From: Halorubrum coriense DSM 10284
Lineage (GTDB): Archaea > Halobacteriota > Halobacteria > Halobacteriales > Haloferacaceae
Reading direction: 5' to 3'
Length of the DNA: 64,000 nt
NCBI RefSeq assembly: GCF_000337035.1
Contig: NZ_AOJL01000017.1
Location: 1-64,000, forward strand
Notes under the pieces: model-generated
What the model saw: only the letters and a program-made list of their open reading frames with translations
The model's database searches: none
What the model was told of the DNA's origin: nothing
Shown: piece after piece, positions 1 through 58,101 of the stretch
Position numbering within the stretch: the first letter of the stretch is position 1
Layout: the number at the start of each line of letters is the position of its first letter
Translations under genes and position numbers: made by a program

Positions 1-190
1 CGGTGAGCGCTCGAAGAGCGCGAACCGCGAGGCTGGGGAGGCGTAGGGTGTGGTTGCTGGCAGTGTGGGGTGGGACTCGAAGGGGCAGTCGCGAGGACGA
101 AGCACGCCGACGTAAGCACTGGAAGGAGCGAGCAACGTGAGCGACTGAAGCGCGCAACGAGGCGCGCGAGTCCTCGCGACTGGGGCTTTG
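1..190 (+). repeat. Dispersed structured repeat, copy A
   Basis: No gene is supported here. A small hairpin (GCGCT/AGCGC arms, about 7-21) is followed by the core GAGGCTGGGGAGGCGT and then GGGGTGGGACTCGAAGGGGC. Both core blocks recur at 56.9 kb and, reverse-complemented, at 48.7-48.95 kb. Downstream, a 13-bp perfect inverted repeat (86-98 with 170-182) encloses a second hairpin (GCGCGC arms near 151-166), so the segment can fold into a long branched stem. It lies beyond the 3' end of the uridine kinase gene. Whether it is a mobile element, a structured RNA or a terminator-like element cannot be decided from one window. The left end may be cut by the window border. Confidence 0.6.
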
Positions 191-246
191 ACGGTGTTCG
201 CTACCGTTCTCCTTCTGGCCCGGTTAACTGGGACAACGCATCGCGA

Positions 247-24800: not shown

Positions 24801-25849
24801 GCCTCGCACCGCTCGCGGGGGCCGCCCCGCAGATCGCCTCGCTCGTCGATCCGGGGGCGCTGCTCGCGACCGGCGGCGCGGTCGACGGGCTCCGGACGGC
24901 CGCCCGCGTGCTCGCGGAGGGGATCGGCAAGGGCGCGGTGTACTTCACCATCGCGGTCGGCCTGACGCTCGTCTTCGGGCTGATGGGCGTGCTCAACTTC
25001 GCGCACGGCGCGGTCGCGATGGTCGGCGCGTACCTCGGCGGACTGGTGCTCGTCCTCGTCGTCGGCGCGAACACGGGGACGCTCGCGACGATACTCGTCT
25101 TCTTCGTCGCGCTGGCGCTCGTGTTCGCGGTGACGACCGCCGCCGGCAGCGCGATGGAGGTGGCGCTCATCAGGCCGATCTACGACCGGACGCCGACCTA
25201 CCAGATCCTGTTGACGTTCGGCGTCTCGCTCATCATCGAGGAGGTCGCGCGGATCGTCTTGACGCTCCGCGGGATCCAGCCGAACCCGCAGTGGCAGGCC
25301 CCGATGGGCACCGCGCCCGACGTGCTGCTCGGCCGCACCGAGCTGTTCGGCGTCGGCGTCAGGCGGCTGTACCTCTTCGAGGTCGCGATCGGCGCGCTCG
25401 TCGCGGTCGCGGTCTGGGCCTTCCTGACGAAGACGCTGTACGGGCTCTACATCCGCGCCGGCAGCGAGGACACCGAGATGGTTCAGGCGCTCGGCATCGA
25501 CGTGCGACAGGCGTTCACCGTCGTGTTCGGCGTCGGGACCGGCCTCGCAGCGGTCGGCGGCGTCCTGCTGATGTGGGACCCGATCTGGGGGCCGAGCGTC
25601 CTCCTGAGCATCGACGTGCTGCTGTACGCGTTCGTCGTCGTCATCATCGGCGGCCTCGGGAGCTTCACCGGGACGCTCGTCGCGGCGGGCATCGTCGGCA
25701 TCGCCGACTCGGTGACGACGTGGCTGTTCACCACCGGGATCGTCACCTTCCCCGGCCTCTCCGAGGTGACCATCTTCCTCCTGCTCGTGGTGATGCTGAT
25801 CATCCGCCCGCAGGGGCTCTACGGCGTCGAGGAGGTGGGGGGCCATTAG
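24797..25849 (+). CDS. livH: Branched-chain-type ABC permease (LivH)
   Basis: This 350-residue integral membrane permease has about eight to nine transmembrane helices. Family features are the early GAVYFTIAVGLTLVFGLMGVLNFAHGA region and the EAA-like loop YIRAGSEDTEMVQALGIDV followed by the YAFVVVIIGGLGSFTGTLVA helix. It forms the translocation pore with LivM. The first ~35 residues are an extra hydrophilic/hydrophobic extension before the first conserved helix. Its TAG stop is embedded in ATTAG, the likely initiation site of livM. Confidence 0.92.
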   Translation: MSLAPLAGAAPQIASLVDPGALLATGGAVDGLRTAARVLAEGIGKGAVYFTIAVGLTLVFGLMGVLNFAHGAVAMVGAYLGGLVLVLVVGANTGTLATILVFFVALALVFAVTTAAGSAMEVALIRPIYDRTPTYQILLTFGVSLIIEEVARIVLTLRGIQPNPQWQAPMGTAPDVLLGRTELFGVGVRRLYLFEVAIGALVAVAVWAFLTKTLYGLYIRAGSEDTEMVQALGIDVRQAFTVVFGVGTGLAAVGGVLLMWDPIWGPSVLLSIDVLLYAFVVVIIGGLGSFTGTLVAAGIVGIADSVTTWLFTTGIVTFPGLSEVTIFLLLVVMLIIRPQGLYGVEEVGGH

Positions 25850-26072
25850 CGACCCCGACCCCGGCGTCGACGAGGCGGACGCTCCGGCCGATTCGGACGC
25901 CGCTGTCAACGAAGCGGACACACCGGTCGACGACGCGGACGCCCCGGTCGACGACGCGGACGCCCCGGTCGACGAAGCGGACGCCCCAGTCGACGAAACC
26001 GATCCGATCCCGCCGTCGACCGCGACTGGCGGCCTCCGCGAGTACCTGTGGGACCACGCCGTTCACGCGGCC
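25845..26072 (+). other. Probable N-terminal extension of LivM lacking a canonical start
   Basis: The livM reading frame is open from 25800 to the first GTG at 26073, but contains no ATG, GTG or TTG. The codon ATT at 25845 begins I/M-S-D-P-D-P-G and overlaps the livH stop as ATTAG, mirroring the ATGA overlaps elsewhere in this operon. The frame encodes in-phase heptads of the type V-D-D/E-A-D-A-P and then LREYLWDHAVHAAV, the start of the first transmembrane helix. ATT initiation, or a sequence change from ATG/GTG, is inferred. Confidence 0.6.
25926..25988 (+). repeat. 21-base tandem repeats
   Basis: Three consecutive near-identical 21-base units (25926, 25947, 25968) encode the heptads VDDADAP, VDDADAP and VDEADAP; degenerate units precede them from 25866. 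Period seven codons keeps the frame, supporting that this stretch is translated as part of LivM. Confidence 0.85.
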
Positions 26073-48080: not shown

Positions 48081-48177
48081 CCGGCCGCCCGCTCGGCCCG
48101 GGACGGCGGCGGACCGATACCGGAACCGAACGGGGGCGCGACAAGCCTTTTGCGTGGATCGACCGTATCAAGAGGTG

Positions 48178-48651
48178 ATGGTATCCACAGGCGACTCCGC
48201 ACCAGCGTTCACCGCGACGGTCGGCACGAGCGACCACGAGCCGTTCGACCTCGACGAGGAGATCGGGGACGGACCGGTCGTGCTCGCGTTCTTCCCCGGC
48301 GCGTTCACGCCGCCGTGTACGAACGAGATGGTCGCGTTCCAGGAGCGCGCCGACGCCTTCGCGGAGGCCGGCGCGACGCTGTTCGGGGTCAGCGCCGACT
48401 CCCCGTTCTCGCAGGGCGCGTTCCGCGAGGAGCACGGGATCGAGTTCGACCTCGTGAGCGACATGGGGGGCGACGCGATCCGGGCGTACGACCTCGAGAT
48501 CGACATCGCCGAGCTCGGCCTCCACGGCATCGCGAACCGCGCCGTGTTCGTGATCGACGGCGACGGCGAGGTCGTCTTCGACTGGGTCGCCGACGACCCG
48601 ACCAACGAGCCCGACTACGAGGCGGTCCTCGACGCCGTCGAGAGCGCTTAA
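48178..48651 (+). CDS. Peroxiredoxin (AhpE/Prx5-like)
   Basis: This 157-residue thioredoxin-fold peroxidase has its peroxidatic Cys in AFFPGAFTPPCTNEM (about residue 49, T-x-x-C context) and the conserved Arg in ANRAVFVIDGDGEV. No second conserved resolving Cys is seen near the C terminus, so a 1-Cys mechanism with an external thiol is likely. It would reduce hydrogen peroxide or organic hydroperoxides in the cytoplasm. The ATG is favoured because the product starts directly with the domain and a T-rich element lies about 29 bases upstream. Confidence 0.92.
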   Translation: MVSTGDSAPAFTATVGTSDHEPFDLDEEIGDGPVVLAFFPGAFTPPCTNEMVAFQERADAFAEAGATLFGVSADSPFSQGAFREEHGIEFDLVSDMGGDAIRAYDLEIDIAELGLHGIANRAVFVIDGDGEVVFDWVADDPTNEPDYEAVLDAVESA

Positions 48652-48725: not shown

Positions 48726-48955
48726 GATCGACGCGAACACCGCTTCGCGACCGCCCCTTCGAGTCCCGCCCCACCGGAAGGCGGTCACGCGGTTTCACCG
48801 CGTGAGCGAGCGAGACCTCCGGTATCGCCCTGTTCCCGCCCGCTTCGCTGCGCGGGCTGCGACTTTCGTACTCCCGCTCGCTTCGCTCGCGGGAACGCAC
48901 CGCACCGCACGCTTCTCCACCCTCGTCGGTCGGCGCTTTTAAGCGCCGACCGCGG
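48726..48955 (-). repeat. Dispersed structured repeat, copy C
   Basis: Read on the minus strand this 230-base segment starts with a 26-bp near-perfect palindrome (48927-48952, arms CGGTCGGCGCTT/AAGCGCCGACCG). It continues with ACGAGGGTGGAGAAGCGTGCGGTGCGGTGC and ends with GGGCGGGACTCGAAGGGGCG, then GCGGTGTTCGCGTCGATC, matching copies A and B. An extra ~120 bases in the middle hold several hairpins, one with perfect 8-bp arms CACGCGGT/ACCGCGTG (48786-48804). It fills the 316-base gap between two convergent genes and no coding sequence is supported. Confidence 0.65.
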
Positions 48956-48967
48956 GGCGAACGCCGA

Positions 48968-49330
48968 TCAGTCGCCCAGAACGCCCCCGATAGCGCCCGC
49001 GAGCGCCGAGTCGACCGCGAACAGCAGCGTCAGGAACAGGCCGACGACGAACACGCCCGCGCCGCCGAGCAGGCTCCCGAGCGGGCCGCCGGCCAGTCCG
49101 ACGAGGCCCCCGAACGTCGCGAGCAGGAGCGTGACGACCACGCCGCTCATCGAGCCCGCCAGCAGGCCGTGCCAGAACCCGGAGAACAGGCCGCCGCCGG
49201 CGACGTAGCCCGCGACGAACCCGCCGATGAGCCCCGCGCCGACGTGGCCCACGACGGGGACGAACGTCGCCAGCAGTCCGGCGACCAGCATCACTACGAA
49301 GCCGTAACCGACGGCGCGCCAATCTGTCAT
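48968..49330 (-). CDS. DUF5518 membrane protein
   Basis: This 120-residue haloarchaeal membrane protein is rich in Gly/Ala with about three to four helices (residues 6-27, 31-55, 60-82, 88-112). GAGLIGGFVAGYVAGGGLFSGFWHG is the family-typical region. Function unknown; the glycine-zipper composition suggests a helical-bundle membrane component. The palindrome of repeat copy C lies 16 bases past its stop codon and may end its transcript. Confidence 0.85.
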   Translation of the reverse strand: MTDWRAVGYGFVVMLVAGLLATFVPVVGHVGAGLIGGFVAGYVAGGGLFSGFWHGLLAGSMSGVVVTLLLATFGGLVGLAGGPLGSLLGGAGVFVVGLFLTLLFAVDSALAGAIGGVLGD

Positions 49331-56029: not shown

Positions 56030-56671
56030 ATGATTTCCAAAGTGTCAGTTATACGTGATCGTGTAATGCTGGCGTACGCCCCGTTCGCTGCCGGACTGCT
56101 CTGTGCGACGGTCCTCCTCGTCGGATTCGCCGCTACCGCATTCGGAGACGACTACCGGTTCTGGCCGCCGGGCCCGGACGAGCGGAAACGGCGCGTGTAC
56201 CTCCTCTGCTCCAATGGGTTTCTGCTGTGTACGCTCCTGACTGTCGTTCTCGATGCCGGGAGCGTGACGATTCCGCTCTGGTCACGGGCGGTCGGCGGGG
56301 TGGTCGCCGTCCCCGCAGTCGGCCTGCTCACGCGATCGGCGGCCGATCTCGGGGAAGCGGAGTCAGCGGGACGCGCCGGGGAACTTCGGACGGACGGGTT
56401 GTACCGATACACGCGAAACCCGCAGAACCTCGGGGCCATCTTCTTGTGGTGGGCCGTGGCGGTCGCTTCGGCGTCACTCCTCGTCGGCGTACTCGCCGGT
56501 GCCATCACGACCTGGATGGTCGTACAGTCGCTCATCGAGGAGCCGTGGCTCCGAGAGCAATACGACGGATACGCCGAATACGCCGGAAGCGTGCCGCGCT
56601 TCGTCGGGATCCGGTCAGTGCGTCGGGCCGTGGAGACGATTCGATCCGATCGGCCCGACGCCGACTCGTGA
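56030..56671 (+). CDS. Isoprenylcysteine carboxyl methyltransferase-like membrane protein
   Basis: This 213-residue integral membrane protein has about five helices and the C-terminal methyltransferase signature GLYRYTRNPQNLGAIFLWW, followed by EEPWLREQYDGYAEYAGSVPRFVG, found in ICMT/PEMT-family SAM methyltransferases. Substrate unknown (lipid or prenyl-type). The start is uncertain; an ATG 36 bases further in (MLAYAPF) is equally possible. Base composition and codon use are slightly less GC-rich than in the neighbouring genes. Confidence 0.8.
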   Translation: MISKVSVIRDRVMLAYAPFAAGLLCATVLLVGFAATAFGDDYRFWPPGPDERKRRVYLLCSNGFLLCTLLTVVLDAGSVTIPLWSRAVGGVVAVPAVGLLTRSAADLGEAESAGRAGELRTDGLYRYTRNPQNLGAIFLWWAVAVASASLLVGVLAGAITTWMVVQSLIEEPWLREQYDGYAEYAGSVPRFVGIRSVRRAVETIRSDRPDADS

Positions 56672-56768: not shown

Positions 56769-56829
56769 AACGATGCGGTGGCGCGTGCCGATGAGCGGCC
56801 GACAGGCCGGGAGGAGCACGGGAGAGGCC

Positions 56830-56990
56830 GCCGGCTCGTAGCGCCGGCTGCCAGAGGGACCTCCGGTCCCTCGCTTGGGTCGCGGCCGTTTTAAATGGCC
56901 GCGACGAGGCTGGGGAGGTGTGAGCCGCTGTGCGGTGCGGGGTGGGACTCGAGGGGGCGGGCGCGAGGCGGTGTTCGTGTCGATCAACGG
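56830..56990 (+). repeat. Dispersed structured repeat, copy B
   Basis: Three consecutive hairpins (arms GCCGGC at 56830-56848; GAGGGACC/GGTCCCTC at 56854-56872; GTCGCGGCC/GGCCGCGAC at 56879-56905, the last around a central TTTTAAA) are followed by GAGGCTGGGGAGGTGTG, TGCGGTGCGGGGTGGGACTCG and GCGGTGTTCGTGTCGATC. The same conserved blocks occur in copies A and C. It lies in the 423-base gap between two convergent genes; no protein-coding gene is supported there. Confidence 0.65.
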
Positions 56991-57094: not shown

Positions 57095-57982
57095 CTATTC
57101 CACGACCGCGAGCGCGACGCCCGCCACGTCGCGAACGCCGACCACCTGGTGTCGCCAGCCGTCGCCGGCGTCGACGCAGAGCGTCCCGGCCTCGGTGACC
57201 GCGACCGAGACGCCGGGCCCGTAGCCGAGCGCGACGGCCGTCTCGTCCACGGGCAGGTCCGCGGGTTCCCACGTCTCGTCGCCCCACTCGCCGCCCCCGC
57301 CGGAGTGAACGAGCAGGTCGCCGTCGACGACCGCCATCGCGTGCCCGTCGCCGTCGGCCGCGACCGCGTCCGCGGCCGCCTCGCGGACCGTCATCCAACC
57401 GTTGCCGAGCCAGTAGAGCCCCGCGCCGGTGGCCGCGAGGGGCATCCCCGACCCGGCCACGTCGCGCGCGTCGTCGAGACCGACGTCCGTGAGCCCGTCC
57501 TCGCCGACCCGGAACACCCCCTCCGCGCCCGCGACGAGCGCGCCGTCGACCGCCCGCGGGTCCGCGACGGAACCGAGCCGCGTCGTCGGCCCGAGCATCG
57601 ATTCGTCGCCTTCGAGTTCGACGCGCTCGATCGCGCCGTCCTCGCGGGCGACGAGGAGCGCGCCGTCGCGAGACGCCGTCGCGCTCACCGCGACCGCCGG
57701 CTCGTCGTCGACTGCCTCGAACGCGGGGTCGTCGCCGACCGGGGCGACCGAGAGCCCGCCCGGCGTGGCCGCGGCGACGAGATCCCTTCCGTCTCCCCGC
57801 GCGAGGACGGCGACGTCGCGGGCGGGATCGCGGGCGACCATGTCGAACGCGCCGACCTTGTCGGCCGACAGCGAGACGCGGACGATCCCGGTCCCCGTCG
57901 CGACGTAGGCGTCGGTGCGGCCGGCGCTGCCCGCGTACACGCGCTTTTCGTCGATCGAGATGTCGTCCTCGGCGGGAGCCAT
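57095..57982 (-). CDS. HVO_0234-type beta-propeller protein
   Basis: This 295-residue protein of repeated short strands (for example TDAYVATGTGIVRVSLSADK, GRDLVAAATPGGLSVAPVGD, AVDGALVAGAEGVFRVGEDG) forms a beta-propeller typical of a small haloarchaeal family. It has no signal peptide and no catalytic motif; it is probably a protein-interaction scaffold. The ATG is chosen by a TATA-like element (plus strand AGTATAAG, 58006-58013) 27 bases upstream; a GTG five codons earlier is less likely. Confidence 0.8.
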   Translation of the reverse strand: MAPAEDDISIDEKRVYAGSAGRTDAYVATGTGIVRVSLSADKVGAFDMVARDPARDVAVLARGDGRDLVAAATPGGLSVAPVGDDPAFEAVDDEPAVAVSATASRDGALLVAREDGAIERVELEGDESMLGPTTRLGSVADPRAVDGALVAGAEGVFRVGEDGLTDVGLDDARDVAGSGMPLAATGAGLYWLGNGWMTVREAAADAVAADGDGHAMAVVDGDLLVHSGGGGEWGDETWEPADLPVDETAVALGYGPGVSVAVTEAGTLCVDAGDGWRHQVVGVRDVAGVALAVVE

Positions 57983-58101
57983 CGCCCGTGGCTTCACCGG
58001 CGGGGAGTATAAGCCCCGCGCGGGGCGGCGCGCGTTCCGACGTTCCGGGAACGCCCGCGCGTTCCGACGGTCATTTGGTCGGCCCCGGCCTAGCCGCGGG
58101 C

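Follow-up and report, generated by a model that had tools for sequence, protein, structure and literature searches.

According to PMC3119063, the small mobile repeats of Haloquadratum walsbyi, its MITEs and PATEs, are defined by their ends and are mostly near-identical within a type. In PMC3733652, a paper in which a term search returned no word starting with Halo, the GTAG- and CGTC-tagged bacterial REP/BIME families consist of palindromic units of 20-40 bp. Here we analyse an intergenic element of Halorubrum, represented by copy C in a 64,000-nt stretch of Halorubrum coriense DSM 10284 (the window). As described in PMC3119063, the H. walsbyi repeats share with this element the lack of a transposase, many copies, palindromes or terminal repeats, presence or absence between strains and a haloarchaeal host. 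In contrast to them, it has a conserved multi-stem core, covarying stems, swapped hairpins and strongly conserved fixed orthologues. PATEs, which derive from IS200/IS605, have near-terminal IS605-like palindromes and no terminal inverted repeats, and the terminal inverted repeats found in genomes G097 and G109 speak against this assignment for the copies there. With REP/BIMEs, as presented in PMC3733652, the element has in common an extragenic location, a high copy number and palindromes that vary within the family; its unit, however, is ~250-330 nt long with a fixed P1-P4 order rather than a tagged unit of 20-40 bp. Of the systems described, these haloarchaeal repeats and bacterial REP families come closest.

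The IS6 family (PF13610) provides a further point of comparison, since the ends of the G097 elements match those of a 687-bp IS6-type element (TGTTCAGATAAG) and two G109 copies are flanked by 8-bp duplications, but the element is without a transposase and the Halorubrum copies end in other sequences. OLE, ROOL and GOLLD are likewise large multi-stem RNAs; the element differs from them in being multi-copy and archaeal and in giving no match in Rfam scans. Some RNAs of this type sit on mobile elements. At gathering score the Rfam scans of 13 sources returned only RNase P and two tRNAs, all outside the elements, and at E ≤ 0.05 (15 sources) two matches far below gathering; in these scans the element thus matched no known Rfam family, and it is unannotated in Rfam 15. 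No description of it was found in the literature searched, subscription papers and supplements aside. Judged by sequence, we class it as a MITE-like mosaic that probably carries a structured RNA domain. The reading we favour, to which we give an even chance, is that copy C has decayed from an intergenic mosaic, non-autonomous and mobile, which has a structured RNA domain at its heart and whose RNA is under selection.

The intact element and copy C

The intact element measures ~250-330 nt and comprises the stem P1 with a tandem GA/GA internal loop, the hairpin P2, a G-rich joint (GACGAGGCTGGGGAGGYGTGAGG), the core GGGACTCGAAGGGGC, the long stem P4, which is closed by a GGG/GGG loop, and the tail GGGGCTTTGG. 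Twelve of the 14 loci with an exact core gave whole elements (176-332 nt, most of them 250-330) for the seed set, which excludes the cut copy A and the decayed copy C; because these seeds were picked by the exact core, its invariance in alignments A1 and A2 is by construction. Later sets were collected with two covariance models, R1 for the part from P1 to the core and R2 for that from the core to the tail. The core often reads GGGACTCAAAGGGGC in Halorubrum copies of other species and GGGACTGAAAGGGGC in other genera. At the 3' ends of L006, L055, L057 and L059 the tail unit GRCTGGGGCTTYGG...TTTATAA occurs in tandem, two to several times, with ~60-nt spacing. The features in the window are:

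48726-48955, minus strand: copy C, a decayed Halorubrum element with P1 missing, P3 present and P4 collapsed (R1 covariance-model matches and orthologous sites)
48925-48954, minus strand: P2 hairpin of copy C, arms CGGTCGGCGC and GCGCCGACCG with a TTAAAA loop (sequence and fold)
48896-48926, minus strand: G-rich joint of copy C, ACGAGGGTGGAGAAGCGTGCGGTGCGGTGCG, consensus GACGAGGCTGGGGAGGYGTGAGGTGCGGTG (alignment against the copy C sequence)
48771-48895, minus strand: P3 of copy C, an extra multi-hairpin insert, GAAAGTCGCAGC ... GACCGCCTTCC (same-joint module in L055, L069 and L074)
48753-48767, minus strand: core of copy C, GGGACTCGAAGGGGC (pattern matches in the window and its own genome)
48726-48752, minus strand: P4 remnant GGTCGCGA and tail GCGGTGTTCGCGTCGATC (48743-48726) of copy C (tail-block matches; alignments A2 and A4 show P4 intact)
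48154-48651, plus strand: AhpC/TSA peroxiredoxin gene, 3' end toward copy C
48968-49330, minus strand: DUF5518 gene, 3' end toward copy C
56776-56985, plus strand: copy B, with P1, an extra hairpin pair, P2, joint, core variant GGGACTCGAGGGGGC, collapsed P4 and tail (R1, 77.8 bits at 56776-56958)
1-208, plus strand: copy A, truncated at the 5' side where the contig begins, core and P4 complete (R1, 53.1 bits for the 5'-cut match; R2, 131.7 bits at 72-208)

Copies A and B belong to the same repeat family as copy C. The first-pass annotation had described copy C as an inverted repeat copy enlarged by ~120 bases of further hairpins, and both points hold: on the minus strand the palindrome CGGTCGGCGC-TTAAAA-GCGCCGACCG is followed by the ACGAGG joint, the extra hairpins, GGGACTCGAAGGGGC and GCGGTGTTCGCGTCGATC, and the additional bases, ~125 nt, are the optional module P3. 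Since this insert splits the copy, R1 matches it in two halves, at 48872-49005 (26.9 bits) and 48753-48800 (26.7 bits). P3 also lies between joint and core in three further copies, L055 (site S1), L069 (site S3) and L074 (the copy C site); the loosened pattern found four copies and the stricter first pattern none. We regard the insert of copy C as homologous to the module of these copies. Copy C is considered decayed because P1 is absent and P4 is down to a few bases, and old copies of this kind would generally lose both stems.

The conserved blocks exceed chance expectation. The tail block occurs six times in the window with up to three mismatches (0.86 expected; six or more in 0 of 100 shuffles) and the core block three times with up to two mismatches (0.73 expected; three or more in 2 of 100 shuffles), while the own genome holds 14 exact copies of the core 15-mer against none of the reversed control pattern. 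Compared with dinucleotide shuffles (200 for each strand), copy C folds with z-scores of -2.95 and -3.17 on its two strands. The sequence TTTATAAA lies 16-17 nt upstream of copy B. For the neighbour protein the nearest named locus is in H. ezzemoulense (93%). Elsewhere in the window, a repeat scan found 21-nt units repeated in tandem within GC-rich sequence at 25842-26012.

Pairing, strand preference and hairpin exchange

Covariation across copies is in line with a folded structure. Both partners have changed in 20 of the 22 pairs of alignment A3 (111 rows), where 96.4% of cells are paired as compared to 81.1% in shuffled and 22.6-58.0% in slid alignments; in A5, which spans several genera and plasmids (107 rows, 99 distinct), the figures are 18 of 19 pairs and 93.7% against 67.6% shuffled. 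A4 (93 rows) gives a smaller excess, with 10 of 19 pairs changed on both sides, 92.8% against 87.4% shuffled, and a pair count reached by 15 of 500 shuffles. As A3-A5 were fitted to model structures, these counts lean toward structure, and support for the terminal mini-hairpin is poor (71.5% of its cells paired in A4 and 72.2% in A5). G-T pairs outnumber A-C pairs 70:18 in A3, 28:6 in A5 outside the weak terminal hairpin (94 unique rows, with 5 partial matches and 8 duplicates dropped), and only 60:41 in A4. This wobble asymmetry indicates that one strand is folded; G-T pairs are stable in single-stranded DNA too. The unpaired blocks are conserved across genera. With a covarying secondary structure and a preferred strand, and with the caveat of cassette exchange set out below, the element has the properties by which a candidate structured RNA would be recognized.

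The P2 hairpins, which could be extracted from 94 of 111 copies, form a limited repertoire common to loci and species. At site S1 the upstream flanks of L059 and L060 are each ~95% identical to that of L064, but despite these similar flanks P2 and the P4 top are different hairpins. When hairpins from three orthologous sites were compared, the closest relative was located at the same site for 8 of 27 P1, 7 of 27 P2 and 3 of 22 P4 hairpins, with chance fractions of 0.04-0.11. Since hairpins usually match other loci best, they either move between loci as units or the sites were struck repeatedly; movement would presumably proceed via recombination in the conserved joints. In L004 and L009 the P4 top has the opposite orientation to that of other copies, as though it had been turned over between the inverted arms.

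Covariation is inflated by this cassette exchange, which bears on the argument of the first-pass annotation that arms differing in sequence with pairing retained point to selection on structure. Pairing is indeed retained, far above shuffles in A3 and A5 (the comparison by which that proposal could have failed) and above slides in A3, but much of the difference between arms reflects wholesale swapping of ready-made hairpins, as site S1 and the nearest-relative counts indicate. Because hairpins swap between loci as cassettes, arm differences alone are no proof of selection, for which column-wise covariation, wobble asymmetry and the orthologues in genus g25 are better evidence.

Spread, mobility and fixed loci

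The earlier proposal of a dispersed intergenic family with a conserved order of parts is borne out by a genome-wide model search, in which the own genome has ~60 copies (63 R1 rows at E ≤ 1 and 61 at E ≤ 0.01, both halves of copy C being counted separately). All 22 sampled congeners have matches, from 17 to at least 70 each and at least 70 in 12 of them; they are among the 28 of 39 genomes (own included) that match at E ≤ 0.001. R2, the core and P4 half, was found in 124 of 170 genomes and 21 of 28 genera of the family, in 184 of 293 genomes and 62 of 87 genera of the order, and in 34 of 294 genomes of a phylum sample, all 34 from the own genus, family or order; owing to the stricter filters and small per-genome caps applied in these large searches the counts are lower bounds. 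R1 occurs beside R2 in other genera as well, e.g. in G100 and G052.

Presence and absence at orthologous sites are evident at the position of copy C, among others. Among 29 loci examined, 22 including the window have both neighbour genes and seven are without one gene. Of the 21 other complete loci, 11 carry an R1-detectable element on the strand of copy C (L055, L057, L062, L064, L065, L067, L070, L071, L073, L074, L078), two hold remnants (L058, L060) and eight have no element (L054, L059, L061, L069, L072, L075, L076, L080); some of the short sites may have lost an element by deletion and so not be truly empty. As the element is common at this site, copy C is the degenerate descendant, or the successor, of such an element. 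In L055 and L070, just past the tail, lies sequence like the 3' end of a transposon gene, which we take to resemble that of an IS200/IS605-type tnpB.

The element is short and has no transposase ORF (176-332 nt in the seed set, 366-368 bp in G109). In G109 and G097, from two other genera, it takes a MITE form with IS6-like ends, in which the R2 half, in most of the copies inspected, forms a head-to-head inverted pair inside terminal repeats; the left half is absent in L213, L224 and L225. The IS6-type (PF13610) elements of G097 and of the own genome (687-688 bp) have the ends TGTTCAGATAAG, as do the structured elements of G097. IS6 elements make 8-bp duplications. Five near-identical G109 copies of 366-368 bp have both ends by pattern match; perfect 8-bp duplications flank two of them (TCGAACCG, TCAGCGAC) and are absent in the other three. 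For the Halorubrum copies, target-site duplications, a further check suggested at first pass, were not found at the sites examined, and no matching IS or other mobiliser was found; part of these copies have both ends marked by a TATA-like motif of the RCTTATAAATAG type. Viral spread was rejected, as exact 15-mers occur in 16 and 15 viral-contig stretches, none with both P4 stem and tail; phage records gave no match to the element, and a Halorubrum copy matched only three plasmid records.

Genus g25 has only 1-5 R2 copies per genome (E ≤ 0.001, nine genomes searched), and at two of its loci the element is strongly conserved against more divergent flanking sequence. After an M20-like peptidase gene (seven loci in seven genomes; gene names were read from translations), the element is 98.9% identical, the 30 nt before it 69.8% and the 60 nt after it 56.8%, with 94.1% in the mostly coding stretch 300-150 nt before. 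After the glucose-6-phosphate isomerase gene pgi (five loci in five genomes), the element reaches 93.9% and the sequence after it 64.7%; before it, identity is 67.8% at 150-30 nt and 91.3% in the last 30 nt. The contrast is weaker or different in a third group (five loci; element 87.6%, before 84-89%, after 34.5%) and a fourth (four loci; element 91.1%, before 60-62%, after 49.4%). Two more groups, of one and two loci, were left out of these identities. A dead transposon would hardly account for the first two groups.

The R2 of g25 matches 15 plasmid records. In 10 of 11 inspected haloarchaeal plasmids (H13, H16, H17 and H18 lay outside the inspected set, and the exception is H14) the element precedes, in divergent orientation, an 858-900-bp gene whose annotation is DNA-binding or OB-fold protein; it lies upstream at a distance of 468-558 bp in the nine with a measured core pattern (the core of L308 varies). 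Two pairs of records are near-duplicates (L299/L304 and L302/L303). Two of the OB-fold proteins are 56% identical, with Pfam OB-fold matches below cut-off. The link between element and gene is an association alone. Between the OB-fold gene and the core and P4 element lies a non-coding region that is long, well conserved and contains hairpins of its own (L299:2035-2505, L300, L302, L305-L309), on plasmids of several haloarchaeal families.

Gene context and competing explanations

Copies C and B both lie between convergent genes, as first described; for copy C these are the peroxiredoxin and DUF5518 genes listed above and for copy B the genes at 56030-56671 (plus) and 57095-57997 (minus). Genome-wide this placement is the largest class: of 56 own-genome copies 19 lie in convergent, 10 in divergent and, for the two orientations, 10 and 11 in co-directional gaps, with a neighbour uncalled in 6, and set against a window background of 12 convergent gaps in 54 it is a preference, no rule. 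A location mainly inside genes, which would have spoken against the earlier proposal, is not what we see; 8 of the 56 overlap a predicted ORF, and these ORFs are probably over-extended, the gene calls coming from a rough script with over-extended starts. In co-directional gaps antisense is as frequent as sense (10:11), on which ground we rejected a plain 3'-UTR element or terminator; the ratio is also odd for an RNA relying on read-through.

Within the 60 nt upstream, 46 of 111 copies have a TTATAAA-like motif, most often at a distance of 13-23 nt, and a second such motif lies ~46 nt past the tail start. The usual haloarchaeal promoter spacing would put an RNA start from the upstream motif inside P1. 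For this reason, and given that only 46 of 111 copies have the motif, we rejected it as the element's own promoter. The motifs may be the ends of Halorubrum elements, the upstream one because element-less species at site S2 (L069, L074) are without it, but in L072 both motifs are retained on either side of a deleted element. The sites in L063 and L072, which at first sight are empty, contain remnants.

Several explanations compete with the favoured one. That the hairpins are chance GC-rich palindromes is practically inconceivable: haloarchaeal intergenic DNA is GC-rich and hairpin-prone, and copy B alone reaches a z-score of only -1.54 against dinucleotide shuffles, but we rejected this candidate on the exact core copies (14 against 0 for the control), model matches down to 3.4e-28 and covariation far above shuffles and slides. 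Divergent placements, the even orientation ratio, and a size and conserved single-stranded blocks far beyond those of a REP make a BIME/REP-like cis element at gene ends, i.e. a stabiliser of mRNA 3' ends, terminator or gyrase-type site with interchangeable palindromes, quite improbable, all the more as wobble asymmetry implies one folded strand; such an element would account for intergenic location with convergent gaps in first place, for mosaic architecture with module exchange and for the two g25 loci downstream of genes in sense.

An unlikely but more serious contender is a purely selfish MITE-type DNA element whose hairpins serve transposition or replication as (single-stranded) DNA, with no RNA function. 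Dispersal, presence and absence at orthologous sites, terminal repeats with two perfect duplications, IS6-like ends in other genera and the frequency of antisense copies would all follow from it. It fits poorly with the near-identity of the fixed g25 locus amid diverged flanks, with the low g25 copy number and with unpaired blocks conserved across genera.

Under the favoured reading of a mobile element with a selected RNA, the conserved domain would comprise the core, the GGG/GGG internal loop, P4 and the GGGGCTTTS tail. Transcripts of the GGGACTCGAAGGGGC-bearing strand would arise from a promoter not placed or by read-through out of a neighbouring gene, and the folded RNA would be functional and under selection; our guess is a protein-binding role, either in cis or in trans. 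Transposases acting in trans would spread copies between genes, and Halorubrum copies would recombine at the conserved joints, so that hairpins are swapped entire, as are optional modules like P3. More tentatively, a possibility we hold with some reserve is that the element represents a haloarchaea-wide class of structured ncRNA absent from Rfam, with a GGG/GGG-loop stem, fixed and conserved in some genera, kept on plasmids near the OB-fold gene and elsewhere mobile on cassette-swapping IS6-type MITEs.

Haloarchaea appear to have their own abundant structured RNA element, present ~60 times in a single genome. Should the RNA prove to be made, it would allow a tractable study of how an RNA gene spreads in the manner of a DNA transposon and how structure evolves through swaps of whole hairpins; such exchange also warns that recombination can inflate covariation. 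Function would be directly testable at the conserved loci of g25 and at the plasmid loci beside the OB-fold gene. In g25 (L252, L255 and others), short GC-rich tandem repeats of ~25-27 nt (CGCGACGACNCCCGAACA...) lie ahead of the element, in the 100 nt before the core.
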